DNA of 64,000 bases, taken from Salinibacterium sp. SWN167. Lineage in GTDB: Bacteria > Actinomycetota > Actinomycetes > Actinomycetales > Microbacteriaceae. The DNA is taken from NCBI RefSeq assembly GCF_015864665.1, contig NZ_JADYWU010000001.1:806001-870000 (forward strand), written 5' to 3'. The notes beneath the pieces are model-generated. The model had not been told where the DNA came from and did not search any database. It saw nothing but the letters and a program-made list of their open reading frames with translations. The translations under genes were made by a program, and so were the position numbers. Positions 4,448 to 22,313 of this stretch are shown here, in pieces (position 1 is the stretch's first letter; each line of letters starts with the position of its first letter).

Positions 4448-4474
4448 GAGAACTCCATTCTTGCCTATGAATGT

Positions 4475-4490
4475 TTCCGCGGGGGCGGAA
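4475..4490. promoter_or_regulatory. Inverted repeat in the mtlR-PTS intergenic region (candidate operator)
   Basis: TTCCGC, four G residues, GCGGAA: a perfect 6-bp inverted repeat with a 4-bp spacer, between the divergent mtlR start (4447) and the EIIB start (4576). A TATAGA sequence at 4528-4533 downstream could be the -10 of the PTS operon, which would put the repeat upstream of the promoter, where an activator such as MtlR would bind. The assignment to MtlR is inference only. Confidence 0.35.
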
Positions 4491-4575
4491 TCTTCTCTAC
4501 TGGAACTCAGGGGACCTTCCCAGCCACTATAGATATCGAAGGTGTGAAGAAGGTTTATCGCGAGGAGGCGATCAG

Positions 4576-5167: not shown

Positions 5168-5224
5168 TCGTGTTCGGCCGCTTCCCTCGCAGTATCCTCA
5201 CATCACAGATATCGGAGTAAAACA

Positions 5225-6754: not shown

Positions 6755-6765
6755 CAGGAGAAATC

Positions 6766-8333: not shown

Positions 8334-8340
8334 CCCCAAC

Positions 8341-8370
8341 TTGGTGAAACGCCCGGGATTAGCGTAGGCT
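8341..8370 (+). promoter_or_regulatory. Candidate promoter for infA and the downstream ribosomal genes
   Basis: TTGGTG (8341-8346), an 18-base spacer and TAGGCT (8365-8370), placed right after the mtlD stop. The -10 fits the actinobacterial TANNNT pattern. A dedicated promoter is expected here, since essential translation genes should not depend on a mannitol-regulated transcript. No experimental support is available. Confidence 0.4.
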
Positions 8371-8477
8371 TTCTCTTTGGTGTTTCAGGCCGTTTTTTTC
8401 GCGCCTTGGCTTTCTCGAAAGTCACTCACCACAATCTACGCAGACCAGCGAACCCCACTTATAGCGACGAAGAGGCT

Positions 8478-8699
8478 ATGGCCAAAAAAGACGGTGTCAT
8501 TGAGATCGAAGGAGCAGTAGTCGAGGCTCTGCCCAACGCGATGTTTCGTGTTGAGTTGACGAACGGCCACGTTGTGCTCGCGCACATCTCCGGCAAAATG
8601 CGACAGAACTACATTCGAATCCTTCCGGAGGACCGTGTAGTTGTAGAGCTGAGCCCGTATGACCTGACTCGCGGCCGCATCACCTACCGCTACAAGTAG
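8478..8699 (+). CDS. infA: Translation initiation factor IF-1
   Basis: IF-1 occupies the ribosomal A site during initiation. The 73-residue product starts [14 protein letters not shown] and ends RITYRYK, matching the highly conserved family over its whole length (S1-type OB fold). The frame is open further upstream to 8406, but the ATG at 8478 gives the canonical N-terminus. It opens the infA-rpmJ-rpsM-rpsK-rpoA-rplQ set, which in most relatives directly follows adk-map. Confidence 0.97.
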
Positions 8700-8774
8700 A
8701 CCGCGCTGGAAAGTAACGTCCACGCTGCCCTTGCGGGCTAGTGGAACGACGACAGCGATTCACAAGGAAAAATA

Positions 8775-8891
8775 ATGAAGGTTAACCCCAGCGTTAAGCC
8801 CATCTGCGACAACTGCCGCGTAATTCGCCGCAACGGTCGCGTCATGGTTATCTGCAAGTCGAACCCGCGTCACAAGCAACGCCAGGGCTAA
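8775..8891 (+). CDS. rpmJ: Ribosomal protein L36 (bL36)
   Basis: A 38-residue zinc-ribbon protein of the large subunit: [19 protein letters not shown] at the start and [11 protein letters not shown] at the end. The zinc ligands are Cys11, Cys14, Cys27 and the histidine near residue 33, so this is the zinc-binding form. An AAGGAAA ribosome binding site precedes the ATG. It sits in its standard place between infA and rpsM. Confidence 0.97.
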
Positions 8892-9087
8892 GGTTCCGCG
8901 AGCAGATCGCACAGTTGCACGGGGTGGGGCGAGCAATCGCCACACACCGCAGCGCACATAACTAAATACGAGAACTAGCAACACCAGATCTGAGACTTGT
9001 GAAAACAAGTAACAGGGACACCATCGGTTGGAGGCCGGTGCACAGGTGCTGTTACAGACCTCTACTCATCAAACAGGAGAAGCCACT
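8892..9087 (+). promoter_or_regulatory. Long structured leader upstream of rpsM
   Basis: 196 bases separate rpmJ from rpsM. The stretch contains a perfect 6-bp hairpin with a GAAA tetraloop (ACTTGT at 8995-9000, ACAAGT at 9005-9010) and further pairing potential around 9020-9050 (CCATCGG...CCGGTG). There is no T run, so it is not a simple terminator. Ribosomal operons often carry autoregulatory leaders; whether this is one, and for which protein, is not known. Confidence 0.4.
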
Positions 9088-9462
9088 ATGGCACGTCTAG
9101 CAGGCGTCGACATCCCACGCGACAAGCGTGTAGAGGTCGCACTGACTTACATTTACGGTGTTGGCCGCACGAGGGCACTCAAAACCCTCGCCGACACTCA
9201 GATCAGCGGAGAGATCCGTGTTCAGGATCTCACCGATGACCAGCTCATCGCGCTGCGCGACTACATCGAAGGAAACTTTCAGGTAGAAGGTGACCTCCGC
9301 CGTGAGGTTGCAGCAGACATCCGCCGCAAGGTTGAAATCGGAAGCTACCAGGGTATCCGTCACCGCAAGGGACTGCCCGTTCACGGTCAGCGCACGAAGA
9401 CCAACGCTCGTACCCGTAAGGGCCCGAAGCGCACCGTAGCCGGCAAGAAGAAGGCCCGATAG
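9088..9462 (+). CDS. rpsM: Ribosomal protein S13 (uS13)
   Basis: Head protein of the small subunit that contacts the P-site tRNA and the intersubunit bridge. The 124-residue product starts [19 protein letters not shown], contains the [10 protein letters not shown] helix-two-turn-helix region, and ends with the basic tail [13 protein letters not shown]. The ATG at 9088 has AGGAG upstream; the frame extends to 9028 but that leader is unlike S13. rpsK follows after about 50 bases. Confidence 0.98.
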
Positions 9463-9513
9463 ACCCTGGGTTCAACCCCAGTGTCGTCGCCATCAACGTT
9501 TTAGGAGAAAACA

Positions 9514-9912
9514 ATGGCAGCACCAAAATCGGCCGCTCGTAAGCCGCGTCGTAAAGAAAAGAAGAACATTGCTGTGGGCCAGGCTCACATCAAGTCAACG
9601 TTCAACAACACCATCGTGACCATCACTGACCCCACCGGCGCAGTTCTTGCCTGGTCGTCGTCAGGTGTCGTTGGCTTCAAGGGTTCGCGTAAGTCGACCC
9701 CTTATGCCGCACAGATGTCTGCTGAGTCGGCTGCACGCCAGGCTCAGGAGCACGGTGTCAAGAAGGTTGACGTTTTCGTCAAGGGACCGGGTTCGGGTCG
9801 CGAAACTGCGATTCGCTCGCTGCAGGCCGCTGGCCTCGAAGTGGGTTCGATCAACGACGTAACACCGCAGACGCACAATGGTTGCCGTCCGCCCAAGCGT
9901 CGTCGCGTTTAG
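9514..9912 (+). CDS. rpsK: Ribosomal protein S11 (uS11)
   Basis: Platform protein of the 30S subunit. The 132-residue product has the conserved [19 protein letters not shown] segment, the [11 protein letters not shown] stretch and the C-terminal [12 protein letters not shown] basic N-terminal tail (KPRRKEKKN) matches actinobacterial S11. TAGGAG precedes the ATG. rpsD, which follows rpsK in some bacteria, is not present here, as in several other actinobacteria. Confidence 0.98.
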
Positions 9913-9957
9913 TTTCACGCCGTACTAGCGGGGCAACTCGTTAGTGCTGGCGTCGTG

Positions 9958-9980
9958 GCGAGGGCCCATGTGGCCCTCGC
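9958..9980 (+). other. Hairpin between rpsK and rpoA
   Basis: GCGAGGGCC and GGCCCTCGC form a perfect 9-bp stem with a 5-base loop in the 163-base gap between rpsK and rpoA. No T tract follows, so full termination is unlikely. A processing site, a partial attenuator or an RNA-stability element would fit. Confidence 0.5.
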
Positions 9981-10075
9981 TCACAGTTCCAGCGCACAAC
10001 TCAATACAACGTCGGGCCAGCCACCCGTCGCCCACAAGTGTCATATAGCGGACACTTCGCCGAAAGGAATTACCA

Positions 10076-11071
10076 GTGCTGATTGCACAGCGTCCCACCC
10101 TTGCTGAGGAGAACATTTCCGAATTCCGTTCACGGTTCGTTATCGAGCCGCTCGAACCTGGTTTCGGTTATACCCTCGGAAACTCACTCCGTCGCACCCT
10201 TCTTTCGTCGATCCCCGGAGCAGCTGTCACCAGCATCCGTATCGATGGAGTTCTTCACGAATTCAGCACCGTCGCCGGTGTCAAAGAAGACGTCACTGAG
10301 GTCATCCTCAACATCAAGAACCTCGTAGTCTCCAGTGAGCACGACGAGCCGATCACCGCTTACCTGCGCAAGCAGGGTGCTGGTGAAGTTACCGCAGCGG
10401 ACATCTCAGCACCTGCCGGTGTAGAGATTCACAACCCGGAACTCGTCATCGCAACGCTCAACGACAAGGCCAAGTTTGAACTTGAGCTGACGATCGAGCG
10501 TGGCCGTGGCTATGTCACCGCAACTCAGAACCGCAGCGAGTTCAGCGAAGCCGGCCAAATTCCGGTCGACTCGATCTACTCGCCCGTTCTCAAGGTCACC
10601 TACCGCGTCGAGGCAACTCGTGCCGGTGAGCGCACTGACTTTGACCGTCTGGTTGTAGATGTTGAAACCAAGTCGGCAATCACCCCTCGCGATGCAGTGG
10701 CTTCGGCCGGTCGCACGCTGACCGAACTGTTTGGACTCGCTCGCGAGCTCAACACGGCCGCAGAGGGTATTGAGATTGGTCCTGCACCGGTTGACGCCGT
10801 GCTTTCGACCGAACTCAGCATGCCGATCGAAGATCTTGATCTTTCGGTGCGTAGCTACAACTGCCTCAAGCGCGAAGGCATCAACACCGTAAGTGAACTG
10901 GTTGCTCTTTCGGAGACCCAGCTCATGAACATCCGTAACTTCGGTCAGAAGTCGGTTGATGAAGTGCGCGACAAGCTCGTCGAGATGGGACTGTCGTTGA
11001 AAGACAGCGTTCCCGGATTCGACGGAGCACACTTCTACGGCGGATACGCCGACGACGAGACCAACGCTTGA
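10076..11071 (+). CDS. rpoA: DNA-directed RNA polymerase subunit alpha
   Basis: The alpha subunit dimerises to nucleate RNA polymerase assembly and contacts promoter UP elements and activators through its C-terminal domain. The 331-residue protein has the N-terminal assembly domain ([23 protein letters not shown]) and the helix-hairpin-helix CTD ([14 protein letters not shown], then [18 protein letters not shown]). The GTG at 10076 gives the usual actinobacterial N-terminus (V)[16 protein letters not shown] lies just upstream. rplQ follows after 38 bases. Confidence 0.98.
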
Positions 11072-11109
11072 GCCACTGGCTCGAAACTTTGACACTGGAG
11101 AATTAGAAA

Positions 11110-11622
11110 ATGCCTACACCTACTAAGGGCCCGCGTCTCGGCGGTGGACCGGCGCACGAGCGCCACATGCTTGCCAACTTGGCCGCAGCCCTGTTCACGC
11201 ACAAGAGCATCAAGACAACGGAAATGCGCGCGAAGCGTCTGCGTCCCGTTGCTGAGCGCCTGATCACGTTCGCGAAGAAGGGTGACTTGCACAACCGTCG
11301 CCGCGCGCTCGGAATCATTGGCGACAAGACTGTCATCCACGAACTCTTCACGGTCATCGCACCGCAGGTTGAGAACCGCGATGGTGGTTACACTCGCATC
11401 ACGAAGCTTGGTTTCCGCAAGGGAGACAACGCTTCGATGGTTCAGATGGAACTCGTTCTTGAGCCCGTAACGCCCAAGAAGAAGGCCCCGAAGGCTGCCG
11501 CTAAGGCTGAGCCCAAGGCTGCTGCAGAAGAGCCCGCCGCCCAGGAGGCTCCCGTTGAAGAAGTAGCAACCGAAGACGTCGCCGTCGAGGACGCTGCTGC
11601 AGAGACTGCAGAAGAGAAGTAA
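11110..11622 (+). CDS. rplQ: Ribosomal protein L17 (bL17) with an acidic Ala-rich C-terminal tail
   Basis: L17 lies at the polypeptide exit of the 50S subunit. Residues 1-120 are the conserved domain ([19 protein letters not shown]...). The remaining roughly 50 residues form a low-complexity tail, first Lys/Ala-rich and then Ala/Glu-rich ([12 protein letters not shown]...), seen in other actinobacterial L17 proteins and predicted to be disordered. It ends the transcription unit: a strong terminator follows within 16 bases. Confidence 0.97.
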
Positions 11623-11637
11623 CTTTCTTCGTTCGAG

Positions 11638-11673
11638 AAAACCCCGGCTCCGCTTCGTGCGGGCCGGGGTTTT
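11638..11673 (+). terminator. Rho-independent terminator after rplQ
   Basis: AAAACCCCGGC and GCCGGGGTTTT pair across a short loop, with T residues on the 3' side. It separates the ribosomal operon from truA, which has its own leaderless-type promoter just downstream. Confidence 0.85.
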
Positions 11674-11695
11674 CTTCGTGAAATAGGGTTGGACT

Positions 11696-12616
11696 ATGAC
11701 TGAAACGGCACCCGCCATCCCGGCGCTTGAGTCGGATGCCGCGCCCTTTGCCCGCCTGCGGCTAGATATCGCCTACGACGGTACGAACTTCTTTGGGTGG
11801 GGCAAGCAGCCTGTGCTGCGCACCGTGCAGGGCACCATTGAAGACGCCCTGGCCGTCATCTTTCGGCGGTTTGGGGTTACACCGCAACTGGTCGTTGCCG
11901 GACGCACGGATGCCGGCGTTCACGCGACAGGCCAAGTGGCTCACCTTGACCTCACAGAGACTCAGCTGCGCAGCCTCGACCGCCCGCGTCGCGGCAACAT
12001 GGGCGGCCGGCGATATGACGGACCGGCCTCGCTGGCACGACGGATCAATGGCATCACGGGCCTTGAGTCCGACATTTTCGTGACCCAGTCAGTGATCGCA
12101 GCGGACGGGTTCGATGCCCGGTTCTCGCCCCTCTGGCGACGCTACGAGTACCGCATCGCCGACAACGAGTCACCGCGTGACCCGCGTCAACGCAATCACA
12201 CACTCTGGTACCCGGCCACTCTCGACGTGGACGCGATGAACGTGGCGGCGAAAGAGCTTCTCGGGCTCCATGATTGGGCTGCCTATTGCAAGCCCCGCGA
12301 AGGTGCCACGACGGTGCGCAGCCTTGAGCGATTCAGCTTTACCCGCACCGATGAGGGCATCATCCTCGCCGAAGTGCGCGCCGATGCGTTTTGCCACAGC
12401 ATGGTGCGGTCGCTCGTGGGAGCCGGAGTCTTTGTGGGACAGGGCAAGATCGATGCTTCGCGCCCCGCCGACATCCGTGATGAACGTTCGAAGGGCAGCG
12501 AATACAAGGTCATGCCGGCTAAAGGACTCACGCTTGTTGAGGTCGGGTATCCGCCAGATGAAGAACTGCACGCGCGCGCAGAACTCACGCGATCACGTCG
12601 CGAGTTGATCGACTAG
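11696..12616 (+). CDS. truA: tRNA pseudouridine synthase A
   Basis: Converts uridines 38-40 of the tRNA anticodon stem to pseudouridine. The 306-residue protein contains LRLDIAYDGTNFFGW, the catalytic motif GRTDAGVHA with Asp72, and SMVRSLVGAGVFVGQGKI near the C-terminus. It is about 30 residues longer than the E. coli enzyme, mainly through an Arg/Gly-rich insertion around residues 95-115. The ATG lies 6 bases after a TAGGGT -10 element (11684-11689), implying a leaderless transcript. In relatives rplM usually follows directly; here a 9.7-kb sugar cluster intervenes. Confidence 0.96.
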   Translation: MTETAPAIPALESDAAPFARLRLDIAYDGTNFFGWGKQPVLRTVQGTIEDALAVIFRRFGVTPQLVVAGRTDAGVHATGQVAHLDLTETQLRSLDRPRRGNMGGRRYDGPASLARRINGITGLESDIFVTQSVIAADGFDARFSPLWRRYEYRIADNESPRDPRQRNHTLWYPATLDVDAMNVAAKELLGLHDWAAYCKPREGATTVRSLERFSFTRTDEGIILAEVRADAFCHSMVRSLVGAGVFVGQGKIDASRPADIRDERSKGSEYKVMPAKGLTLVEVGYPPDEELHARAELTRSRRELID

Positions 12617-12661
12617 TCACCGCTGCGGCGCGCTGCGCTGCCGCCGTTGTTACCGACCGCG

Positions 12662-13714
12662 TCAGTGCTGCGCGGGTGCCCGAAGGTCGGTGGAACGTCG
12701 TACGACAAGCTCGGGCGGGAGCACTTCTTGACGGTGGGTGTGGGAATCTTCTCGCGCTGAGTGCTCAATGAGCAATCGTGCGGCGCGCGTGCCGAGCTCG
12801 TCAATGGGCTGGCGCACTGACGTGAGCGGCACAACCCAATCGCGAGCGAAGTCAATGTCGTCGTACCCGACGAGCGCAACGTCCTCTGGCACGCTGAGTC
12901 CCGCGTCGATAAGTCCGCGGTAGACGCCGAAGGCGAGCATGTCGTTTCCGCAAAATACGGCGTCGGGGGAGTCTCCCTCGAGAAGCAGTTCCGCGGCTCG
13001 TCGACCATCTTGGATGCCGATCCCTGACGTACTGACTTCGATCAAAGACACTTCTGGATCCATGCCGGCTGCAATGATCGCTTCGCGTGCGCCTTGGGCG
13101 CGATCGGCGAACTGACGGAGCCCGGTTGGTCCTCCGACGACAGCGATGCGGGTGTGGCCTAGCTGCAGCAGGTGTTCGATTGCGAGGCGCCCTCCTGCGA
13201 CGTTGTCGACGGAAATGGAGCAGTGTTCTGGACCGCCGTTGTAGTCGATCAACACAACGGGCAGATCGCCCGGGAGGTCTTTGTAGGGGTCGGAGTCTTC
13301 GTCGAGGCTCGCGGGTGCCAGTAGTACGCCGCGGACTCGCTGGGCGGCCAACATTGCGAGAAGTCCAGACTCGCGGGTCGTGTCGCCTTCGGAGTTACAG
13401 AGCATCACCACGTGGCCCGATTCGCGGACGGTGCGCTCGATGACGTGCGCGGCTTCCATATAGAAGGGGCTTTCGATATCCAGAACAACAAGCCCGATGA
13501 CGTTGCTCGAGGCTCCCGTGAGCACGCGGGCTTGCTGGTTGGGCACGAAGCCAAGTTCGGCAATCGCTTTCTCAACGGCGGCGCGGGTGCGCGGGTGAAC
13601 AGTGTCGGGGCGATTGATCGTATTCGACACGGTGCCTGTCGACACCTGGGCCAGTGCGGCGACATCGCGGATCCCGGCGGGCGACTTCGATGTCGCAGTG
13701 TCGGGGGTACTCAT
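12662..13714 (-). CDS. LacI-family transcriptional regulator of the sugar cluster
   Basis: A 350-residue repressor-type protein. The N-terminal LacI helix-turn-helix (about residues 14-65) reads GIRDVAALAQVSTGTVSNTIN with the hinge helix PNQQARVLTG, followed by a periplasmic-binding-protein-like sensor domain (DVALVGYDDIDFARDWVVPLTSVRQP near residue 280). It is divergent from the ABC importer operon. Two palindromes of the LacI-family CCGG-centred type lie in the shared 282-base intergenic region, which makes local autoregulated control the straightforward reading. The inducer is unknown. Confidence 0.92.
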   Translation of the reverse strand: MSTPDTATSKSPAGIRDVAALAQVSTGTVSNTINRPDTVHPRTRAAVEKAIAELGFVPNQQARVLTGASSNVIGLVVLDIESPFYMEAAHVIERTVRESGHVVMLCNSEGDTTRESGLLAMLAAQRVRGVLLAPASLDEDSDPYKDLPGDLPVVLIDYNGGPEHCSISVDNVAGGRLAIEHLLQLGHTRIAVVGGPTGLRQFADRAQGAREAIIAAGMDPEVSLIEVSTSGIGIQDGRRAAELLLEGDSPDAVFCGNDMLAFGVYRGLIDAGLSVPEDVALVGYDDIDFARDWVVPLTSVRQPIDELGTRAARLLIEHSAREDSHTHRQEVLPPELVVRRSTDLRAPAQH

Positions 13715-13874
13715 GGATAGCTCACTTCTTGTGCATGGTTCGGGTGCTGCAGGTTTCTCACTCTAAGGGCATTGCCGGGGTGCACCGGGTATGGGTGCAG
13801 TCGAGCTTCTCGTAATCGCATCGTTGTGATCATCTCCGCCTAGCGGTTGCATATCGGTATTTGTCCAGTGTACG

Positions 13875-13890
13875 TTTGAACCGCTTTAAA
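13875..13890. promoter_or_regulatory. LacI-type operator, imperfect copy
   Basis: TTTGAACCGCTTTAAA is a near-palindrome of the consensus TTTGAACCGGTTCAAA. It lies 17 bases (centre to centre) upstream of a perfect copy. A weak promoter (TTGCAT at 13847-13852, TACGTT at 13871-13876) would place both operators at or just after the -10, where bound repressor would block transcription of the importer genes. Confidence 0.6.
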
Positions 13891-13893
13891 AAA

Positions 13894-13905
13894 TGAACCG
13901 GTTCA
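13894..13905. promoter_or_regulatory. LacI-type operator, perfect palindrome
   Basis: TGAACCGGTTCA is a perfect 12-bp palindrome with the central CpG typical of LacI/GalR operators. It sits 91 bases before the binding-protein start and forms a tandem with the imperfect site at 13875-13890. Confidence 0.75.
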
Positions 13906-13996
13906 AAATTCTCGACCGGGCGCAATGACGCGAAAGTGCTGAGGCTCTAGGCGCTGCGTCCGCGCAACACTGCACTCACACCAAAAGGAGAAACAC

Positions 13997-15028
13997 ATGA
14001 AGCAACGTCGCTTTGCAGGCCTCGCGATCGGTCTCGTGGCCGTCGTAGGACTCGGCCTCGCTGGATGTTCCGCTGACGCCGACACATCTACCGCATCCGG
14101 GGAAGACGCCTACACAATCGTTATCGTCCCCAAGGACTCGACTAACCCGTGGTTCGTTCGCATGGAAGAGGGCGTCAACAAGTTCGCGGCTGATTCCGGC
14201 AACGATGTTTACCAAAAGGGCCCCGCTGAAACGGACGCCACACTGCAGGTTCAGGTCATCCAAGACCTCATCGCTCAGGGTGTAGACGCCATCGGCGTCG
14301 TACCGGTTGACCCCGGAGCACTTGAGACCGTCTTGAAGCAGGCCATGGACGCCGGCATCGTTGTTGTCACCCACGAAGGTGCCAGCCAGGAAAACACGAT
14401 GTACGACATCGAAGCCTTCAACAACACCCAGTACGGCGCATTCATCATGGACAACCTCGCCGAGGCTATGGGCGAAGAGGGCACCTACGCCACGATGGTT
14501 GGCCACGTAACCAACGCGTCGCACAACGAGTGGGCTGACGGTGCTGTTGCCCGTCAAATGGAGGCTTACCCGAACATGACGCTGCTTGCTGCCGAGCCGC
14601 GCGTTGAGTCGCAGGACGACGGAGAGGTTGCCTACCAAGCAGCCAAGGAACTCCTCAAGAAGTACCCCGAAGTAACCGGCATCGTCGGAACCTCGTCGTT
14701 TGACGCTCCTGGTGTCGCTCGTGCGATCGAAGAACTCGGCCTCACCGGCAAGGTCTTCGTGAGCGGAACTGGCATGCCGGCCGCTAACAAGTCGATCCTC
14801 GAAAAGGGCCTCGTCAAGACGCTGACCCTCTGGGACCCGGCAGACGCTGGTTACGCTCTGGCATCGCTCGCCGAGCAGATCCTCGACGGCGAAGACATCG
14901 CTGACGGCGTGAACCTCGGAGTCACCGGTTACGAAAACATGACCTTCGCTGAAGGTAGCGACAAGGTTCTCGAAGGTAACGGCTGGGTTGTTATCGACAA
15001 GGACAACGTAGACAGCTTCGGCTTCTAA
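13997..15028 (+). CDS. Sugar ABC transporter substrate-binding lipoprotein (ribose/rhamnose type)
   Basis: A 343-residue extracytoplasmic lipoprotein that would capture the sugar and deliver it to the permeases. The signal peptide ends in the lipobox LAGC, giving a lipid-anchored cysteine near residue 25. The mature part is a type I periplasmic-binding fold (IVIVPKDSTNPWFVRMEEGVNKFAA, then GVDAIGVVPVDPGALETVLKQA), of the group that includes RhaS, RbsB and AI-2-binding proteins. Ribosome binding site AAAAGGAGA. It is the first gene of the operon and is followed by a strong hairpin. The ligand cannot be assigned from sequence. Confidence 0.92.
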   Translation: MKQRRFAGLAIGLVAVVGLGLAGCSADADTSTASGEDAYTIVIVPKDSTNPWFVRMEEGVNKFAADSGNDVYQKGPAETDATLQVQVIQDLIAQGVDAIGVVPVDPGALETVLKQAMDAGIVVVTHEGASQENTMYDIEAFNNTQYGAFIMDNLAEAMGEEGTYATMVGHVTNASHNEWADGAVARQMEAYPNMTLLAAEPRVESQDDGEVAYQAAKELLKKYPEVTGIVGTSSFDAPGVARAIEELGLTGKVFVSGTGMPAANKSILEKGLVKTLTLWDPADAGYALASLAEQILDGEDIADGVNLGVTGYENMTFAEGSDKVLEGNGWVVIDKDNVDSFGF

Positions 15029-15042
15029 ACAGTTCCGTTTAC

Positions 15043-15082
15043 GCGACCAGGGCAGAGCGAACATTCGTTCTGCCCTGGTCGC
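15043..15082 (+). other. Strong intercistronic hairpin between binding-protein and ATPase genes
   Basis: GCGACCAGGGCAGA (15043-15056) pairs perfectly with TCTGCCCTGGTCGC (15069-15082), a 14-bp stem that can extend inward. No T run follows (ACCCCC instead). In ABC import operons such stems often protect the upstream binding-protein message from 3' decay or partly terminate, giving excess binding protein over membrane components. Confidence 0.75.
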
Positions 15083-15119
15083 ACCCCCAGATTTATTCAC
15101 GCGCGGAAAGGACCGGACG

Positions 15120-16634
15120 ATGGTAGATAACGTCATCGCGGTACGCGATATCGGTAAGGCTTTCGCTGGCGTTCAAGCGCTTGATGGCATCACCTTGGAG
15201 ATCGCTCCCGGAGAGATTCACTGTCTCGCTGGAGAGAATGGCAGTGGCAAGTCCACGCTGATCAAGGTCATGTCTGGTGTACACGCCCCCGATACCGGAA
15301 CCATCGAACTGAACGGCAAGACGTTTTCGAAGCTGTCGCCCATCGAGGCGATCTCGAACGGCGTTCAGGTCATTTATCAAGACTTCTCCGTTTTTCCGAA
15401 CCTCACGGTGATGGAGAACTTGGCGCTCAACGCCGAGCTCGCAGCCCACCGCACTTTCGTGAGTTGGAAGCGGATGCGGGCCGTCGCTGAAGAGGCGATC
15501 GCCAAAATTAACTTTACGATCGACCTCGACGAGAAGGTCGGCCAGCTTTCTGTGGCACAGAAGCAACTCGTCGCTATCTCCCGCGCGCTCATGAGCGACG
15601 CAAAACTCATCATTATGGATGAACCAACCACGGCTCTGACGAAGCGCGAGGTTGACGCGCTCTTTGCCATCATCCTCGATCTCAAGGCCCGTGGAATCGC
15701 GACGCTGTTCGTAAGCCACAAGCTGGACGAAGTGTTCGAGATCAGTGAACGCTTCACGATCATCCGCAACGGTAAGTCGGTTATCACGTGCTTGCCGGAG
15801 GAACTGGATCACGCGACGTTCTCGCACCACATGACCGGCCGCGAGTTCGACGACGACCACTTCGTTCCTGAACACGTCTCCGAAGAGCCCATCTTGGAAA
15901 CGCGGGGACTCGGCGTCGATGGAGCGTTTGCGGATGTTGACCTCACACTGCGTAAGGGCGAAATCCTGGGAATCACCGGGCTGCTTGGCTCCGGACGAAC
16001 GGAACTCGCGCTCTCGCTCTTCGGTTCGAAGCCTGCCGATTCGGGCAAGATCCTGATCAACGGTGAAGTTGTCGAGGTCGGCAGCGTGCGCGCCGCGATC
16101 GCTCACGGTATTGGCTACGTTCCCGAAGACCGCCTCACCGAAGGTCTCTTCCTCGAGCGTTCCATTAACTCAAACATCGTGATCTCCGAGATCGATTCGT
16201 TCGTCTCGAAGTTCGGGGCACTCGATCAGCGCAAGGCGGATGCCGAAGGTCAGCGCTGGGTCGACGAGCTCAAGATCGCAACGCCCAACCCTGCTAACCC
16301 GGTGAACACTCTTTCCGGAGGAAACCAGCAGCGCATCGTGCTCGCGAAGTGGCTCGCCACTCATCCAAAGATTTTGATTCTCAACGGCCCAACGGTCGGT
16401 GTCGATATCGGATCGAAGCACGACATCCATCGCATTTTGCGCACGCTTGCCAGCGAAGGCCTCGGCGTCATCATCATCTCCGATGACATCCCTGAGGTCA
16501 TCCAGAACTGCAACCGGGTCATGGCGATGAACGCAGGACGAATCGTGGCAGAAATTGACCCGCGCAGGACGACCGAATCCGAGCTCGCCGAGCTCATGTC
16601 GAAAGACCCGAGCACTATTGACGGGAAGGGCTGA
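15120..16634 (+). CDS. Sugar ABC transporter ATP-binding protein, duplicated (RbsA/RhaT type)
   Basis: A 504-residue ATPase with two nucleotide-binding domains, as in RbsA and MglA. The first has Walker A GENGSGKSTL (about residue 38) and Walker B LIIMDEPTTAL. The second (from about residue 255) has GLLGSGRTEL in place of a canonical Walker A, the signature LSGGNQQRIVLAKWL, and a degenerate Walker B region ILILNGPTVGVDIGSK, where an Asn-Gly replaces the usual Asp-Glu. Asymmetric sites are usual in this family, but the loss of the acidic pair at the second Walker B is noticeable. The stop is one base before the next ATG. Confidence 0.93.
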   Translation: MVDNVIAVRDIGKAFAGVQALDGITLEIAPGEIHCLAGENGSGKSTLIKVMSGVHAPDTGTIELNGKTFSKLSPIEAISNGVQVIYQDFSVFPNLTVMENLALNAELAAHRTFVSWKRMRAVAEEAIAKINFTIDLDEKVGQLSVAQKQLVAISRALMSDAKLIIMDEPTTALTKREVDALFAIILDLKARGIATLFVSHKLDEVFEISERFTIIRNGKSVITCLPEELDHATFSHHMTGREFDDDHFVPEHVSEEPILETRGLGVDGAFADVDLTLRKGEILGITGLLGSGRTELALSLFGSKPADSGKILINGEVVEVGSVRAAIAHGIGYVPEDRLTEGLFLERSINSNIVISEIDSFVSKFGALDQRKADAEGQRWVDELKIATPNPANPVNTLSGGNQQRIVLAKWLATHPKILILNGPTVGVDIGSKHDIHRILRTLASEGLGVIIISDDIPEVIQNCNRVMAMNAGRIVAEIDPRRTTESELAELMSKDPSTIDGKG

Positions 16635-16635
16635 G

Positions 16636-17652
16636 ATGGCCAAGTTAGTGCGAAAGCTCACTAAATCAAACGAGTTCTACCTTTTGCTCGTGATCATTGC
16701 CGTGAGCATTGTCATCCAGTTGCGCAGCGGGCAATTCTTCTCCGCGAACAACCTGGTCGACCTCGCCAATGCGATGGTCGTTCCCGGCATCTTTGCGGTT
16801 GGCGCCTTCATGGTGCTGGTCGCTGGCGGAATCGATGTCTCATTTCCGGCGCTGGCGTCGCTTTCCGTCTACGCCACCACCCGCGTGCTCGTGGATGCGG
16901 GCTACACCGGGGGAGTTTGGTTGCCGTTCCTGATGGTCATTGTGGTCGGGGCAATCCTCGGGGCGTTCAACGGACTGTTCACCTCGAGGTTTGTGGTGCC
17001 TGTGCTCATCATCACCCTCGGAACCGCCAGCGTCTTCTCCGGAGTCATGCAGGGCGTGTTCAAGTCGGTTCAGATTCCGAACCTGCCGCAGGGGATGAGC
17101 GACTTCGGCCGCTCGACACTGTTCGTGGCGACGAACCCTGAGTCAGGGCTCACCTCGAACATGCCGGTTGCATTCCTCATCTTGGTTGCTGTCGTTGCTG
17201 TTGCCTTCGTCGTGATGAGGTACACCACCTTCGGCCGCGGCCTCTACGCGATTGGCGGCGACGAAAGTGCTGCTGCTCGCGCAGGTTTCAAAGTGCGCAA
17301 GATCAAGTTCTGGCTCTTCGTCATTGTGGGAATCATTGCCAGCCTCGCTGGACTGGTGCGCACGAGCATGATGGACCAAATGCATCCGACGAACCTGCTC
17401 GGTATGGAGCTCATGGTTATCGCCGCGGTCGTGCTCGGTGGTGCCTCCATTACGGGAGGAACCGGAACCCTGACCGGAACGATGCTGGGCACGCTGTTGA
17501 TTGTGATCGTGCAAAACAGCATGATCTTGGTCGGCATCCCCACCTTCTGGCAGGGCTTCGCGCTCGGCACCCTGATCCTCGTCGGAACAGGTATTTCGGC
17601 CGTGCAACTCACCCGATCACGCAAACGCGCACCCGCGCTGGTTCAAGGATAG
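16636..17652 (+). CDS. Sugar ABC transporter permease, first subunit (RbsC type)
   Basis: A 338-residue membrane protein of the BPD_transp_2 family, with about eight to ten hydrophobic segments. Typical motifs are FMVLVAGGIDVSFPALASL near the first third and ARAGFKVRKIKFWLF in the coupling region facing the ATPase. The ATG at 16636, one base after the ATPase stop, is preferred; the longer frame from 16555 would lie inside the ATPase gene. It forms a heteromeric pore with the next gene. Confidence 0.92.
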   Translation: MAKLVRKLTKSNEFYLLLVIIAVSIVIQLRSGQFFSANNLVDLANAMVVPGIFAVGAFMVLVAGGIDVSFPALASLSVYATTRVLVDAGYTGGVWLPFLMVIVVGAILGAFNGLFTSRFVVPVLIITLGTASVFSGVMQGVFKSVQIPNLPQGMSDFGRSTLFVATNPESGLTSNMPVAFLILVAVVAVAFVVMRYTTFGRGLYAIGGDESAAARAGFKVRKIKFWLFVIVGIIASLAGLVRTSMMDQMHPTNLLGMELMVIAAVVLGGASITGGTGTLTGTMLGTLLIVIVQNSMILVGIPTFWQGFALGTLILVGTGISAVQLTRSRKRAPALVQG

Positions 17653-17660
17653 GGACGGCC

Positions 17661-18704
17661 ATGTCTGCTCTAACGACTCTTACGCCTCTTCGGGATCGTC
17701 TCACTCGCGACCCCCACGTCACGCGCCTCGCCGTGATTCTCGTTCTGCTCTTGACGTTCTTCATGCTCGTCAAGACTAAGAACTTCTTTGGAATTGCCAC
17801 GTGGCAGTCAATGGCTGTGCAGTTCCCCGAGTTTGGCCTCATGGCTCTCGGGGTGATGCTCACCATGATTATTGGAGGTATCGACCTCTCTGTGGTCGGC
17901 GTCGCCAATATGACAGCAATCGGCAGCGCGACCCTCATGATGTCGATTGCACCCACCGGCTCCGACAGTCCCCAGGGCTACCTCGCTGTTGTCGCGGCGA
18001 TCGCGTTCTCGCTCATTGTGGGAGCGATAGCCGGCGCCTTCAACGGGTTCTTGATAGCCAAAGTGAAGATCCCCGCGATTCTGGTGACGCTCGGAACCTT
18101 TGAGCTCTTTACGGGTATCGCGGTCATCATCACGGGAGGAAAGCCCGCCAGTGGCCTTCCCGCCCAGTACGGCGAGATCATGGCGCAGCGCGTCTTCGGA
18201 ATCATTCCGATGCCGCTCATCATCTTCATCCTCGCCACTGTCGTGATCGCTCTGATCATGTACAAGACCGCATTCGGCACCAAGCTCTACATGCTCGGCT
18301 CGAACGAAACAGCGGCGCAGTTCAGTGGGCTCAAGACCGACAACCTCATCATCCGCACCTATATGACCTCGGGCATTTACGCCGCGGCCGCCGGTCTCGT
18401 GATGCTGGCCAACTACAACTCGGCGAAGGCTGACTATGGCTCCACGTACACGCTGCTCGCAGTGCTCATCGTGGTGCTGGGCGGAGTGAACCCGAACGGT
18501 GGATCAGGTCGATTGTCGGGAGTGATCCTTGCGGTCGTTGTGCTGCAGGTTCTCTCATCGCTGCTCAACACCTTCCCGAATATCAGCAACTTCTACCGCC
18601 CGCTGATCTGGGGCGGAGTGCTGCTGCTCGTCATCGTGGTGAATCAATGGACTAAAAAGAACAGGCTCTCTCGTCTGTTCGGTGTGAAAGGAAACAAATC
18701 ATGA
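17661..18704 (+). CDS. Sugar ABC transporter permease, second subunit (RbsC type)
   Basis: A 347-residue paralogue of the preceding permease (MLTMIIGGIDLSVVGVANM; NETAAQFSGLKTDNLIIRTYM). Paired permeases with one duplicated ATPase are typical of rhamnose and AI-2 importers (RhaPQ, LsrCD), in contrast to the single RbsC. The ATG follows GGGACGG. It ends with a four-base overlap (ATGA) with the isomerase-like gene, so import and catabolism are translationally coupled. Confidence 0.92.
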   Translation: MSALTTLTPLRDRLTRDPHVTRLAVILVLLLTFFMLVKTKNFFGIATWQSMAVQFPEFGLMALGVMLTMIIGGIDLSVVGVANMTAIGSATLMMSIAPTGSDSPQGYLAVVAAIAFSLIVGAIAGAFNGFLIAKVKIPAILVTLGTFELFTGIAVIITGGKPASGLPAQYGEIMAQRVFGIIPMPLIIFILATVVIALIMYKTAFGTKLYMLGSNETAAQFSGLKTDNLIIRTYMTSGIYAAAAGLVMLANYNSAKADYGSTYTLLAVLIVVLGGVNPNGGSGRLSGVILAVVVLQVLSSLLNTFPNISNFYRPLIWGGVLLLVIVVNQWTKKNRLSRLFGVKGNKS

Positions 18705-19264
18705 AACTGACTAAAGACCGCCACGTTGTTGTAGGCGCTGACTTTGCTGGATTCCCTCTCAAAGAGGCCGTCAAGCGGCACCTTGAGGCGCGCGACTGGA
18801 CTGTTACTGACCTGACCCCCACTCTCGACGACGCTCCGATGTACCAGCGAGCTGGGTTCATGCTCGGAGCCAAGCTTGCCGAGGGCGAGTTTGAAAAGGC
18901 TCTTGCGTTCTGTGGCACCGGAATGGGCATCCACGTTGCTGCGAGCAAGGTGCCTCACGTGCACGCCGCCGTCTGTGAAAGTGCGCCATCGGCGTTGCGT
19001 GCGGCCACGGCGAACAACTGCAACCTCATGGCGATGGGCGCGTTCTACATTGGCCCGCGCCTCGGAATGGCCATGGCGGATGCGTTCCTTGATAACAGCT
19101 TTGGTGACGGCTACGAGAACTGGGAAGGCTTCGGCGACTACCACATGATCGGCTACGAAGAGTGTGAAAACTTCGACTACCAGGCCTACAAAGACAACGG
19201 TTTTGAGATCGTCGACGAGCGCAACGTGGCCATGGGGCCAGAGCCTCGCGGCCTCGCTTACTAA
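18701..19264 (+). CDS. RpiB/LacAB-family isomerase-like protein lacking phosphate-binding residues
   Basis: A 187-residue protein of the ribose-5-phosphate isomerase B fold. The catalytic-cysteine motif is kept (FCGTGMG, Cys71, equivalent to Cys66 of E. coli RpiB), as are asparagines at 105 and 108. By alignment made by eye, the phosphate-contacting His10 in the DHxG motif is Phe15 here (ADFAG), the ring-opening His99 is Ala104, and the C-terminal Arg pair (133/137 in E. coli) has no counterpart in an acidic, aromatic-rich extension (DGYENWEGFGDYHM...). It is about 40 residues longer than RpiB. Position upstream of a kinase suggests isomerisation of a non-phosphorylated sugar; the activity is unproven. 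Confidence 0.8.
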   Translation: MKLTKDRHVVVGADFAGFPLKEAVKRHLEARDWTVTDLTPTLDDAPMYQRAGFMLGAKLAEGEFEKALAFCGTGMGIHVAASKVPHVHAAVCESAPSALRAATANNCNLMAMGAFYIGPRLGMAMADAFLDNSFGDGYENWEGFGDYHMIGYEECENFDYQAYKDNGFEIVDERNVAMGPEPRGLAY

Positions 19265-19289
19265 CTGATCGATAGCCAGAGGGAGACAC

Positions 19290-20039
19290 ATGGCGAAGGT
19301 ATTGCTCGCAGGAGAGTCATGGTCGACGACGTCGATCCACACGAAGGGTTTTGACTCCTTTGTCACTTCCGCATATGCCGAGGGGGCAGATGATTTCATC
19401 GCTGCTCTGAAGTCAGCGGGTAACAGCGTTGAGTTCCAGCCCAACCACGTTGCGGCCGAACGATTCCCGACCACCGCTGAGGAGCTCAGCCAGTACGACG
19501 TTGTCGTGCTCAGCGACATCGGGGCTAATACGCTCTTGCTGCCCAACGGCGTCTTTGCCAAGGGCGAGCGGATTCCGCATCGCCTCGAAGTGTTGGCGCA
19601 GTGGGTGCGCGACGGAGGATCGCTCTTGATGGTTGGCGGCTACCTCAGCTTCCAAGGCATCGAAGCGAAAGCGAACTACCGCAACACTGCCTTGGCGAGC
19701 GTTCTGCCGGTCGAAATGGAGATTGGCGACGACCGCGAAGAGACTCCGCAGGGTGTCGAAGCCGTGTCCCTCGACAACCATTCTGCCACCGCCGGCCTGC
19801 CGACCTCGTGGCCCGCAGTGCTCGGTCATCATCGCTTGGTTGCCCGCGACGGTGCCCAGACCCTGGCGACTGTCGGGGCGTTCCCTCTTCTTGTCGTGGA
19901 TGCCGAAGGTGCCGGCCGCGTTGCCGCTTTTGCAAGCGACATGGGCCCGCACTGGCTGCCGACCGAGTTCTTGGAATGGGACGGCTTTGCTCCCATGTGG
20001 AACCAGTTGATCTCGTGGCTCGCTCGCGAGACTGACTAA
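19290..20039 (+). CDS. Class I glutamine-amidotransferase-like protein (DUF1355 type), no cysteine
   Basis: A 249-residue cytosolic protein resembling the 'putative glutamine amidotransferase' family (PF07090, a flavodoxin-like fold related to ThuA). Recognisable features are the N-terminal strand VLLAGESW, YDVVVLSDIGANTLL (about residues 69-83) and WVRDGGSLLMVGGYLSFQG, where a true class I amidotransferase would have its Cys nucleophile elbow. There is no cysteine anywhere in the sequence, so glutaminase activity is excluded. The C-terminus (RVAAFASDMGPHWLP.EFLEW) is conserved-looking. It lies between the isomerase-like gene and the kinase, within one operon. A role in sugar handling is inferred from context only. 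Confidence 0.75.
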   Translation: MAKVLLAGESWSTTSIHTKGFDSFVTSAYAEGADDFIAALKSAGNSVEFQPNHVAAERFPTTAEELSQYDVVVLSDIGANTLLLPNGVFAKGERIPHRLEVLAQWVRDGGSLLMVGGYLSFQGIEAKANYRNTALASVLPVEMEIGDDREETPQGVEAVSLDNHSATAGLPTSWPAVLGHHRLVARDGAQTLATVGAFPLLVVDAEGAGRVAAFASDMGPHWLPTEFLEWDGFAPMWNQLISWLARETD

Positions 20040-20059
20040 GCACAGGCAAGTAGGACTAA

Positions 20060-21475
20060 ATGGTGGGCCACGTTGTTGCGCTCGACTTTGGCGCGACTAG
20101 CGGCCGTGTAATTCTGGGCGAGGTCGGCCCTGACCAGTTGCGCACGGCAACGCACGCGCGATTCACTAACCGTGCGGTGAGCGTGCGCGGCTGCCTGCAT
20201 TGGGACGTTCTCTCCCTGTGGCAGGGCGCGCTCGACGGGCTCACTTCGGCGATCCGCGAAGTGCCCACGGTGTCGTCTGTCGCGACCGACACGTGGGGAG
20301 TCGATTACGGGCTGCTGCGCGACGGACAGCTTCTCGGCAATCCACGGCACTATCGCGATGAACGAACCGACGCCGCGGTCGAGCGCGTGCAATCGCTGAG
20401 CCCGCAGGCTAAGCAATATGCGGCAACCGGCATCCAGTTCATGCCGATCAACACGATCTACCAGCTTTCAGCCGACGCGGCAGAAAATCGGCTCGAGCTA
20501 GCTGACACCGTTCTCCTCATGCCCGACCTCTTTACCTACTGGCTGAGTGGGATCAGCATCGCCGAGACCACGATGGCCTCAACGACCGGACTGCTCGATG
20601 TGCACACTCGGCAGTGGAGCGACAGCCTGCTCGACGTCGCCGGAGTGCGGCGCGAACTGTTGCCCGAGCTCGTGATCCCGGGTACTCGCGTTGGCGAGCT
20701 GGACGCGGATGTCGTCGCCCAAGTGCGCGCAGAGTCACCCATCGAAGTGGTCGCCGTTGGCTCGCACGATACGGCGTCGGCGGTGACGGCGATTCCGATG
20801 CAACCGGAGACGGCAGCGTTTATTTCGTGCGGCACGTGGGGACTGGCTGGTGTCGAGTTGGAGAGCCCCGTTGTTACTGAGGCGACCCGTACCGGTGGAT
20901 TCACCAACGAGGTCGGCGTCGATGGACGCATTCTTCTCATGCGCAATGTCATGGGGTTGTGGATTTTGAGTGAAGCAGTGCGCCAGTGGGAACGCGACGG
21001 CGAAGCGATCAGTTTGCCCGAACTTATTGAGGCAGCCGCCGCCGTCTCCGACGCGATGCCCGTAGTTGACGTCAACGATCCTCGATTCTTGGCGCCAGGC
21101 AATATGCCTCGACGAATCACTGAGTGGTGCACGGAGCGCGGCATCCGCGCACCGGGCAATCGCGCCGAGATGGCACGCTGCATTATTGAATCTCTCGCTC
21201 AAGCTTTCGCGGATGCCGTGCTCAGCGCTGGATTGCTCGGCGACGTCCCGGTAAAGACGATCCACATCGTTGGCGGCGGATCCCTCAACCGTTTGCTGTG
21301 TCAGCGCACCGCTGACCGCGCGGGAATCCTGGTTCTCGCGGGCCCAGTCGAGGCGACAGCGCTCGGAAGTGTCCTTGTTCAAGCGCGCGCGATGGGGCAC
21401 ATCTCGGGCAGTCTCGACTCGCTTCGCGATCTCGTGCGACGCACACATCATCCCGTCAGCTACACGCCTCGCTGA
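20060..21475 (+). CDS. FGGY-family carbohydrate kinase, rhamnulokinase-like
   Basis: A 471-residue sugar kinase. It matches the rhamnulokinase branch of the FGGY family: ALDFGATSGRV at the N-terminus, ATDTWGVDYGLL (about 75-86), STTGLLD, GSHDTASAV with the predicted catalytic base Asp237, the ATP-domain motif SCGTWGLAG, and HIVGGGSLN near residue 405. It would phosphorylate a ketose at its terminal hydroxyl before aldol cleavage by the next gene. The true substrate could be L-rhamnulose, another ketose or a branched ketose; no rhamnose isomerase (RhaA/RhaI) is present in the cluster. Confidence 0.88.
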   Translation: MVGHVVALDFGATSGRVILGEVGPDQLRTATHARFTNRAVSVRGCLHWDVLSLWQGALDGLTSAIREVPTVSSVATDTWGVDYGLLRDGQLLGNPRHYRDERTDAAVERVQSLSPQAKQYAATGIQFMPINTIYQLSADAAENRLELADTVLLMPDLFTYWLSGISIAETTMASTTGLLDVHTRQWSDSLLDVAGVRRELLPELVIPGTRVGELDADVVAQVRAESPIEVVAVGSHDTASAVTAIPMQPETAAFISCGTWGLAGVELESPVVTEATRTGGFTNEVGVDGRILLMRNVMGLWILSEAVRQWERDGEAISLPELIEAAAAVSDAMPVVDVNDPRFLAPGNMPRRITEWCTERGIRAPGNRAEMARCIIESLAQAFADAVLSAGLLGDVPVKTIHIVGGGSLNRLLCQRTADRAGILVLAGPVEATALGSVLVQARAMGHISGSLDSLRDLVRRTHHPVSYTPR

Positions 21476-21536
21476 CACCGCAACTCTCCCTGAATTCGTC
21501 TCACCCCTGAATTCGCCCAACATAAGGACTGAAAAG

Positions 21537-22313
21537 ATGACCGCACGAATTGCTCCCGACCTCGTTAGCGCCGATCTCCTCGGACTCACCACCCGCCTCG
21601 GCCTACCCGAGCGCGACCTCGTGATTCTCGCTGAAGGCAACACGAGCGAATTGATCGCTGATGGCACGATTATCGTCAAGACGTCGGGTTCCTCGATGCA
21701 GAACGCAACGGCAGCAAACTTTGTCAGCGTCGAAATCGAACCTCTCCTCGAGGTGCTGCGTGATCCGAATGCCAGCCAAGACCGATTGACGGCCGAACTG
21801 GATGCCGGTGAGATCGACGGTCAGCGGGTGCGGGCCTCCATTGAGACCCTCATTCACGTGGCGGTGCGCGCGTATGCACCGGCGCGGTACGTGGCTCACA
21901 CCCACCCGACCGCGGTCGTTTCGTTGCTCGCGAGCGTGCACGCTGAAACCTCGTTCGTCGATGCCGTTTACTCAGACGAGCTCATGGTCCTGGGGCGTAG
22001 TCTCTACATTCCGTATGCTCAGCCCGGTATCGAACTTGGCCAGCTGTTTTTGACACGACTCGGTGAGCACGTCGAACAGTATGGTGAAGTGCCGTCGTTG
22101 ATTCTGCTGGGAAACCACGGCATCGTCGCGATCGCTGACTCGGCGGAGGGGGCTGAGGCGATTTCCCTGATGGCGGTCAAGAGCGCCCGGGTTCGTCTCG
22201 GTGCGTTGCAAGCCGGCGGAATCGCGAGTTTGAGTGCGGAAGTGACTGCCCACTATTTCGACCGCCCCGACTTCCGTGAGCGCCGTGCTGCTCTCACGGG
22301 CACCACCAAATAG
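21537..22313 (+). CDS. Class II aldolase/adducin-family sugar-phosphate aldolase
   Basis: A 258-residue zinc aldolase of the fuculose/rhamnulose-1-phosphate aldolase family. Visible active-site elements are the phosphate-binding ILAEGNTS and KTSGSSM, the acid/base Glu103 in SIETLIH, and the zinc ligands His121 and His123 (AHTHPT) and His194 (NHGIVA). It would split the phosphorylated ketose into dihydroxyacetone phosphate and an aldehyde. It lacks the fused dehydrogenase domain of actinobacterial RhaD-type rhamnose enzymes, and no aldehyde dehydrogenase is nearby. The ATG at 21537 is preferred over a frame extending back to 21270, which would overlap the kinase. Last gene of the cluster. Confidence 0.88.
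   Translation: MTARIAPDLVSADLLGLTTRLGLPERDLVILAEGNTSELIADGTIIVKTSGSSMQNATAANFVSVEIEPLLEVLRDPNASQDRLTAELDAGEIDGQRVRASIETLIHVAVRAYAPARYVAHTHPTAVVSLLASVHAETSFVDAVYSDELMVLGRSLYIPYAQPGIELGQLFLTRLGEHVEQYGEVPSLILLGNHGIVAIADSAEGAEAISLMAVKSARVRLGALQAGGIASLSAEVTAHYFDRPDFRERRAALTGTTK

Follow-up and report, generated by a model that had tools for sequence, protein, structure and literature searches.

A nine-gene sugar cassette of Salinibacterium with a divergent RpiB-family isomerase: a candidate route for a rhamnose-companion 6-deoxy sugar

Which sugar is taken up and dismantled by a set of nine genes that joins an importer, a sugar kinase and an aldolase to a divergent isomerase of the RpiB family? The set lies at positions 12662-22313 of a 64,000-nucleotide stretch of DNA from Salinibacterium sp. 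SWN167 (the window, G000:C1:806001-870000, where G000 is the strain's own genome and the cassette spans C1:818662-828313). Pfam searches and inspection of open reading frames (ORFs) confirmed nine genes of the families given below, on a Salinibacterium-like chromosome. The set probably belongs to the class of deoxysugar isomerase-kinase-aldolase routes. More specifically, and far more tentatively, it may encode an inducible, horizontally acquired route by which a 6-deoxy sugar that accompanies rhamnose is degraded via L-fuculose; the identity of the sugar is something that we infer from sequence and do not regard as proven. The features are as follows, in window coordinates, with protein lengths in amino acids (aa) and with ABC standing for ATP-binding cassette.

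12662..13714, minus strand: LacI-family repressor, 350 aa (Pfam LacI and Peripla_BP_3), divergent from the operon and in the same position in other full cassettes
13877..13888, plus strand: operator-like site 1, TGAACCGCTTTA, a match to the pattern TGAACCGNTTNA
13894..13905, plus strand: operator-like site 2, the perfect palindrome TGAACCGGTTCA, 17 bp from site 1
13997..15028, plus strand: lipoprotein sugar-binding protein of CUT2 type with an AauA-like pocket (Pfam Peripla_BP_4; best PDB matches 5bra, 9i1m and 3d02)
15043..15082, plus strand: long RNA hairpin between the binding-protein and ATPase genes (fold energy against shuffles)
15120..16634, plus strand: CUT2 sugar ABC ATPase with two ABC domains (Pfam ABC_tran, two stretches)
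16636..17652, plus strand: permease 1 (Pfam BPD_transp_2)
17661..18704, plus strand: permease 2 (Pfam BPD_transp_2)
18701..19264, plus strand: divergent RpiB-family isomerase, 187 aa, a putative free-aldose isomerase (PF02502, LacAB_rpiB)
19290..20039, plus strand: GATase1_like protein without cysteine, 249 aa, a probable accessory (PF07090, 308 bits)
20060..21475, plus strand: FGGY kinase of the rhamnulokinase/L-fuculokinase group (FGGY_N/FGGY_C; TIGR02627, 398.6 bits, cut-off 528)
21537..22313, plus strand: stand-alone class II aldolase, 258 aa (Pfam Aldolase_II)

All the genes named in a preliminary description of this DNA (a LacI regulator, a lipoprotein binder, an ATPase, two permeases, RpiB-like and amidotransferase-like proteins, an FGGY kinase and an aldolase) were thus recovered by Pfam, and the duplicated ATPase that it reported corresponds to two ABC_tran stretches within one protein. 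The junctions are as tight as it held, running from a 4-base overlap of permease 2 with rpiB through gaps of one base (ATPase to permease 1, ATG 16636), eight (permease 1 to 2), 20 (PF07090 gene to kinase), 25 (rpiB to PF07090 gene) and 61 bases (kinase to aldolase) to 91 bases between the binding-protein (sbp) and ATPase genes. For the aldolase the most probable start is ATG 21537, which is kept in L010, L012, L013 and L014 among the compared loci, and the longer ORF from TTG 21270 is most likely an artefact of the mechanical scan. With its Peripla_BP_4 binder, two-domain ATPase and BPD_transp_2 permeases, the importer is of CUT2 type. To call the cluster complete was nevertheless too strong, as it holds no aldehyde-processing gene; lactaldehyde oxidation is probably lent by RhaEW.

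In the proposed route a sugar, most likely 6-deoxy-L-talose and perhaps L-fucose, would enter through the ABC importer as aldose or ketose. The RpiB-family enzyme would turn the aldose, in its free form, into the ketose L-fuculose; phosphorylation by the kinase would give L-fuculose-1-phosphate, and the aldolase would cleave the latter into dihydroxyacetone phosphate (DHAP) and L-lactaldehyde, which RhaW, the dehydrogenase half of the rhamnose-locus RhaEW, would oxidize to L-lactate. The LacI-type regulator would act at the two operator-like sites 17 bp apart, rendering the route inducible, and the PF07090 protein would serve as a dispensable sugar-handling accessory. The logic of isomerase, kinase and class II aldolase, a deoxy or rare sugar as substrate, and DHAP plus an aldehyde as products had been proposed before and, completeness aside, these stand; what had been overlooked is that the cassette is linked to the rhamnose locus, that its binding pocket resembles that of a D-ribulose binder and that the RpiB-family protein has lost its phosphate anchors. 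The statement that the set had no known assignment likewise agrees with the full-text literature (open-licence PMC articles), where no such set was found assigned.

The isomerase has the RpiB fold (PF02502), as had been remarked, and neither RhaA nor RhaI is among the nine genes. In an alignment of five members, its branch keeps the equivalents of E. coli RpiB Asp9, Tyr43, Cys66, Thr/Ser68 (Ser in three of the five) and Asn100, and all five members lack those of His10 (now Phe), His99 (Ala), Arg110 (Phe), Arg133 and Arg137; E. coli RpiB and one of the two other RpiB proteins of G000 retain all five of these anchor and ring-opening residues. Sections of two published studies assign phosphate anchoring to the His and Arg equivalents and ring opening to those of His99 (PMC4783025, PMC3755991), the mapping of published residue numbers onto the alignment being our own. 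The first of these also describes RpiB enzymes acting on free sugars, with L-talose the best for the C. thermocellum enzyme and L-mannose a substrate too for that of C. difficile (PMC4783025, in the sections consulted). The cassette protein further carries a conserved C-terminal extension of about 40 aa; its AlphaFold2 model was poor (mean predicted local distance difference test score, pLDDT, 56) and was not used. 6-Deoxy-L-talose stereochemically matches the L-talose case and yields L-fuculose, and it is a bacterial surface sugar accompanying rhamnose; it may be a wall sugar of Microbacteriaceae as well, which neither a literature search nor a published passage on another genus confirmed. 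A housekeeping RpiB role was rejected, given the two other PF02502 genes found in the genome by profile search. One of those two (L098, G000:C1:1422885) has Gly at the catalytic Cys position, and Proteus mirabilis has a lone RpiB-like protein of 158 aa (L082, 5998-6474) without His99 and the Arg anchors, its gene lying, by eye, near efp-like and lysine aminomutase-like genes.

That the RpiB-family protein supplies the isomerase step is best supported by the attachment of different isomerases to the same core elsewhere. Genome G704 has RhaI, RhaB, DeoR, a rhamnosidase and a stand-alone aldolase of the same family, with no RhaEW, and G546 has a TIM-barrel isomerase-like gene and DeoR (both recognized by eye) together with a RhaB-like kinase, a CUT2 importer, the aldolase, HAD and FGGY genes and RhaEW. 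The cassette aldolase profile matches 10 of 396 genomes of the phylum, and about six such matches (family f69) instead have other FGGY kinases for neighbours, along with another class II aldolase (names by eye). These loci suggest that kinase, aldolase and importer form a core that is joined by different isomerases in some lineages.

By sequence comparison the cassette kinase appears as near to L-fuculokinase as to rhamnulokinase. A PDB search scored it at 293 bits with streptococcal FucK (4c23) and 284 with RhaB (2cgj), against 294 and 325 bits, respectively, for the genome's own RhaB (448 aa of sequence used); identities to FucK and E. coli RhaB are 37.4 and 37.6% for the cassette kinase and 35.8 and 40.2% for the own RhaB. 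Even this canonical RhaB reaches only 450.6 bits with the TIGR02627 rhamnulokinase model (cut-off 528), compared with 398.6 for the cassette kinase. Specificity positions gave no clear answer between FucK and RhaB. In the kinase tree, which like the aldolase tree carries a long-branch warning, three RhaB proteins (own, G916 and G444) form one supported group and the cassette kinases fall outside it in a part that is not resolved. The aldolase, stand-alone and, as had been observed, without the fused dehydrogenase of actinobacterial rhamnose clusters, forms with an aldolase of G150 a supported clade apart from RhaE, again subject to the long-branch warning. Its Glu, His-Thr-His and Asn-His-Gly motifs are conserved, SIETLIH, HTH and NHG aligning with SSEWRFH, HNH and HHG of FucA, and the Glu and three His presumably play the role of such residues in class II aldolases. 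Glu versus Asp at the catalytic position was rejected as a marker, since the RhaE of G546 also has Glu. FucI (PF07881) was over cut-off in none of 16 genomes. The G150 aldolase gene (L069, 10116-11557) lies with a lone CUT2-type permease gene, no other cassette gene having been found nearby, and this locus is perhaps a remnant.

The rhamnose connection is a matter of neighbourhood. L-rhamnose itself very likely has its own separate locus in G000, where genes for a RhaI-like isomerase (C1:72372), RhaEW (C1:83717) and RhaB (C1:85753) lie 732-745 kb from the cassette. The cassette would therefore be a second, rhamnose-like system; on the same ground a plain L-rhamnose operon was not the first choice, and the thought that the set might already be characterized for L-rhamnose does not apply. 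RhaEW, which turns L-rhamnulose-1-phosphate into DHAP and L-lactate (PMC3870299, in the portion consulted), was over cut-off in 22 of 29 genomes (27 of the genus and two metagenome-assembled genomes, MAGs), including both MAGs and each of the six members of the genus that carry the cassette. Profile searches found an isomerase gene in the six carriers that is termed RhaI-like, as the cut-off of the RhaI model was reached by no genome; the MAGs G443 and G444 gave no RhaI match, RhaA not having been searched there. In G916 and G1010, of one genus, the order is RhaB-RhaEW-DeoR (minus strand), lacI (minus), the eight other cassette genes (plus) and RhaI (minus). L012 has RhaEW and DeoR immediately upstream of its cassette lacI; in G444 one contig ends in RhaEW-DeoR and the L014 contig starts with the cassette, an adjacency that we only infer. 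The RpiB-branch gene of G828 follows RhaEW by 70 bases, and that of G866 stands with an aldolase gene (recognized by eye) beside tRNA-Ser. An extra kinase and aldolase beside RhaB and RhaEW would make sense if their ketose were a diastereomer of L-rhamnulose. The G828 cluster as a whole (L109, 3289-17299) holds genes for a 2-hydroxyacid dehydrogenase, a GH78 rhamnosidase, ThuA, RhaEW, the RpiB-branch protein, a further ThuA, Gfo/Idh/MocA, a phosphotriesterase and a Dak kinase, and it can be read as a different rhamnoside or deoxysugar route with the same isomerase branch.

Twelve long loci with the RpiB branch were compared: the window, L010 to L014, L017 and L109 to L113, with gene calls in the compared loci made from codon usage, so that ends may be wrong. 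Among named relatives, Salinibacterium strains come nearest (L010, S. amurskyense DSM 16400; L011; L017); L013 belongs to G017 (PHSC20C1), L109 to G828, L110 to G866, L111 to G894, L112 to G916 and L113 to G1010, and L012 and L014 are from MAGs, L014 from G444. All nine genes occur in order in eight of the twelve (the window, L010, L011, L017, L012, L014, L112 and L113), which span three lineages, namely Salinibacterium, a pair of MAGs of the same type and a further genus (G916/G1010). Such conservation is more than chance, and it answers the worry that the genes might not co-occur in relatives. Of the others, L111 has lacI, the importer, an rpiB-like gene, a divergent kinase (39%) and an aldolase (38%) with no PF07090 gene, in L109 and L110 the RpiB gene stands among other genes, and in L013 a run of N and what looks like an inversion interrupt the ATPase gene. 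The branch was found in 9 of 349 Microbacteriaceae genomes and 5 of 85 genera (E ≤1e-28, all nine at least 339 bits), and among 394 genomes drawn from the class only G000 passed E 1e-25. In the window, L010, L011 and L017 the cassette sits between truA and rplM, which adjoin each other, cassette-free, in all three sister genomes examined (G025, G004 and G009). The gene set accordingly has the appearance of a mobile cassette. In G017 (L013/L117-L118) its first part is inverted and about 10 kb off beside the run of N, which is either a true inversion or an assembly error. The cassette proteins of the MAG loci L012 and L014 are 73-85% identical to those of the window, and their downstream flanks look mutually similar by eye; these MAGs are labelled Microthrixaceae and Actinomycetes, and the first label may be wrong.

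The importer offers a different view of the substrate. Of the closest structures, 9i1m is AauA, solved with D-ribulose (PMC12307932, in the parts available). Six AauA contacts were compared (Lys37, Trp43, Glu118, His167, Glu196 and Ser223), and all five cassette binders aligned (window, L012, L014, L111 and L112) are identical at five of them, with Asp for Glu196; the genome's own rhamnose-locus binding protein keeps none of the six. L-fuculose matches D-ribulose at C3 and C4 and adds a methyl on C5, a likeness that would reconcile the pocket, the kinase and the link to the rhamnose locus.

The two operator-like sites, TGAACCG[C/G]TT[T/C]A, lie upstream of the operon; TGAACCGNTTNA gave three matches, representing two sites since the palindrome matches on both strands, against 0.07 expected. 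A related site is present in 9 of 9 lacI-sbp intergenic regions compared, and a related pair with the 17-bp spacing in 8 of 9 (by eye; L111 has one clear site), the exact pattern being matched only in four Salinibacterium loci among 118. The hairpin has an 18-pair stem in a 95-nucleotide fold of -45.1 kcal/mol (z -7.2, with 0 of 200 shuffles as good), and strong stems occur at its position in 7 of 8 other loci, that of L012 being weak; it would be a typical means of keeping the level of the binding protein higher.

As had been described, the PF07090 protein resembles amidotransferases and is free of cysteine (0 in 249 aa); because it thus lacks the nucleophilic Cys of class I glutamine amidotransferases, it is not an amidotransferase. 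It is 44-47% identical to the structures of STM3548 and STM1381 (2gk3 and 3soz; 243 aligned columns), its fold also resembles ThuA proteins and beta-galactosidase domains, and its AlphaFold2 model is fair (pLDDT 72). PF07090 was over cut-off in 7 of 60 genomes, six of the genus including the own genome. Rather than being a built-in, fixed part, as had been supposed, it is probably an accessory to the route, because its gene is missing from the G894 and G866 loci, a negative that covers those loci only, with no genome-wide search made there. Among six plasmid loci inspected, the neighbours of PF07090 genes vary and are drawn from LacI, PfkB/ribokinase, CUT2 and phosphotriesterase or lactonase-like genes. 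The neighbours of STM3547 are described as being of unknown function in passages of a 2026 study (PMC13432705). Elsewhere, a second PF07090 protein (L051 of G020, 8553-15684) is encoded with an NMT1/THI5-like binder, an M24 peptidase, an ABC permease, and LacI-like, M20 and carbon-nitrogen hydrolase proteins, an arrangement that by eye recurs in Frondihabitans (L016), and another family of the order has a PF07090 gene with a nucleoside hydrolase gene about 6 kb away (L052 of G058, 1608-9423).

Several considerations weigh against the L-fuculose route. The shift of the kinase towards FucK is small, and among 17 fixed differences from RhaB one matches FucK only and one E. coli RhaB only; weak partial PF07881 matches below cut-off exist in 3 of the 16 genomes. 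The argument from a D-ribulose-like pocket rests on one solved relative and on sequence, a protein of G546 and 5bra each keep three of the six AauA contacts, and if the pocket binds a ketose the isomerase is not strictly needed. The Arg133 and Arg137 columns fall in a gapped part of the alignment. A Rhizobium DerI-type protein and one other RpiB of the own genome also lack His99 and three anchors while keeping Arg110, and since they share most of the losses, anchor loss is not proof of free-sugar use. RhaEW was over cut-off in 13 of 13 RpiB-branch carriers tested versus 194 of 349 Microbacteriaceae, a weak association (P = 0.005 by genome and about 0.2 by genus, values that treat the branch search and the RhaEW search of the 349 genomes as the same draw), and within the genus the counts are 6 of 6 carriers versus 14 of 21 others (P = 0.13). 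It is therefore adjacency, not co-occurrence, that carries the rhamnose link.

One rival is a pentulose route, in which D-ribulose (or D-ribose or D-arabinose) would be imported, phosphorylated by the kinase to D-ribulose-1-phosphate and cleaved by the aldolase to DHAP and glycolaldehyde. The five of six contacts shared with the D-ribulose binder AauA speak for this, as does the conversion of D-ribose to D-ribulose, a documented free-sugar reaction of the RpiB family (sections of PMC4783025 and PMC3755991); the repeated adjacency to RhaEW, with its cleavage of L-rhamnulose-1-phosphate and oxidation of L-lactaldehyde, would be left unexplained, however, and the five cassette proteins have Asp in place of AauA Glu196, such that we regard this route as unlikely. 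Somewhat less likely still is an alternative route for L-rhamnose (or L-quinovose), in which the RpiB-family enzyme would be a non-orthologous L-rhamnose isomerase and the kinase and aldolase would act on L-rhamnulose. The best NCBIfam model of the kinase is rhamnulokinase, both MAGs combine RhaEW with the absence of a RhaI match, the same-family aldolase of G704 accompanies RhaI and RhaB where RhaEW is missing, and L-mannose is accepted by C. difficile RpiB (PMC4783025, same sections). Yet a second set would be redundant in G916 and G1010, which have RhaI, RhaB and RhaEW in the same locus, and in the six Salinibacterium carriers with their RhaI-like and RhaEW genes, and none of the six pocket positions agrees between the cassette binder and the rha-locus protein.

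It is improbable that the substrate is a shorter or branched sugar (apiose, a tetrulose or a methylated sugar) that is phosphorylated ahead of isomerization, in the manner of erythrulose routes. Such a route would accord with the 100 bits (cut-off 240) that the RpiB protein scores with the D-erythrulose-4-phosphate isomerase model, with the missing ring-opening His, a trait of the Rhizobium protein too, and with the position of that Rhizobium RpiB gene beside the gene for OiaX (3-oxo-isoapionate-4-phosphate decarboxylase); on the other hand, the Rhizobium protein keeps the Arg110 anchor that the cassette protein is without, and a 6-carbon deoxy ketose is what the RhaB-type kinase and the link to the rhamnose locus suggest. 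Apiose in particular was reduced to a minor rival, the literature search having given no match and the nine genes including no apiose-specific family. That the RpiB-family and amidotransferase-like proteins instead remove or rearrange a substituent of a glycoside or N-glycosyl sugar ahead of the kinase, with no aldose-ketose isomerization, is very improbable: the company of PF07090 genes in the six plasmid loci, the two ThuA, Gfo/Idh/MocA and phosphotriesterase genes next to the RpiB-branch gene of G828 and the ThuA-like fold of PF07090 favour it, but the G894 and G866 loci speak against it, having the RpiB-branch gene and an aldolase gene in the absence of the amidotransferase-like one.

The L-fuculose route, if correct, would bring a new structural type of isomerase into 6-deoxyhexose catabolism and show that the RpiB family has been recruited for free sugars in nature, beyond rare-sugar biotechnology. 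It would also provide a short list of candidate substrates for a transporter and pathway unnamed in the family libraries searched, and it would place the PF07090 family, which has solved structures and to which the literature searched assigned no function, within a defined pathway. The boldest form of the proposal, which we hold to be doubtful, is that this is the first catabolic route for 6-deoxy-L-talose, that a new RpiB branch has lost phosphate binding to become a free deoxyhexose isomerase, and that the cassette moves among Microbacteriaceae, docking onto the rhamnose locus for lactaldehyde oxidation.

Several known systems come close to the cassette. With the actinobacterial RhaEW pathway for L-rhamnose (portions of PMC3870299) the cassette shares a CUT2 importer, present also in the own rhamnose locus, an FGGY kinase of the RhaB group, a class II aldolase and the proposed end in DHAP and L-lactaldehyde, and it adjoins that pathway in several genomes; it differs in having no RhaA or RhaI, an unfused aldolase of a separate clade, its own LacI and a different importer pocket. 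With the FucI-FucK-FucA pathway for L-fucose it would share the ketose, the ketose phosphate and the products, and it has Glu at the FucA position of its class II aldolase; FucI is missing, however, the importer is of ABC type and the kinase of the RhaB/streptococcal-FucK type. The Aau and Rbl systems for D-ribulose (parts of PMC12307932) likewise have a sugar ABC importer, with the shared AauA contacts, and in Rbl an FGGY kinase and a non-essential isomerase, but the parts described include no aldolase, D-ribulose goes to the pentose phosphate pathway and the Rbl isomerase is KpsF-like. STM3548 and STM1381 are relatives of the PF07090 protein, and the neighbours of STM3548, in the source as available, are a PfkB kinase, a DMT transporter and a phosphotriesterase, unlike those in the cassette. 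Finally, the cassette isomerase has in common with RpiB and LacAB isomerases the PF02502 fold and the active-site Asp, Cys, Thr/Ser and Asn, and it departs from them in the loss of the phosphate anchors and the ring-opening His and in its C-terminal extension.

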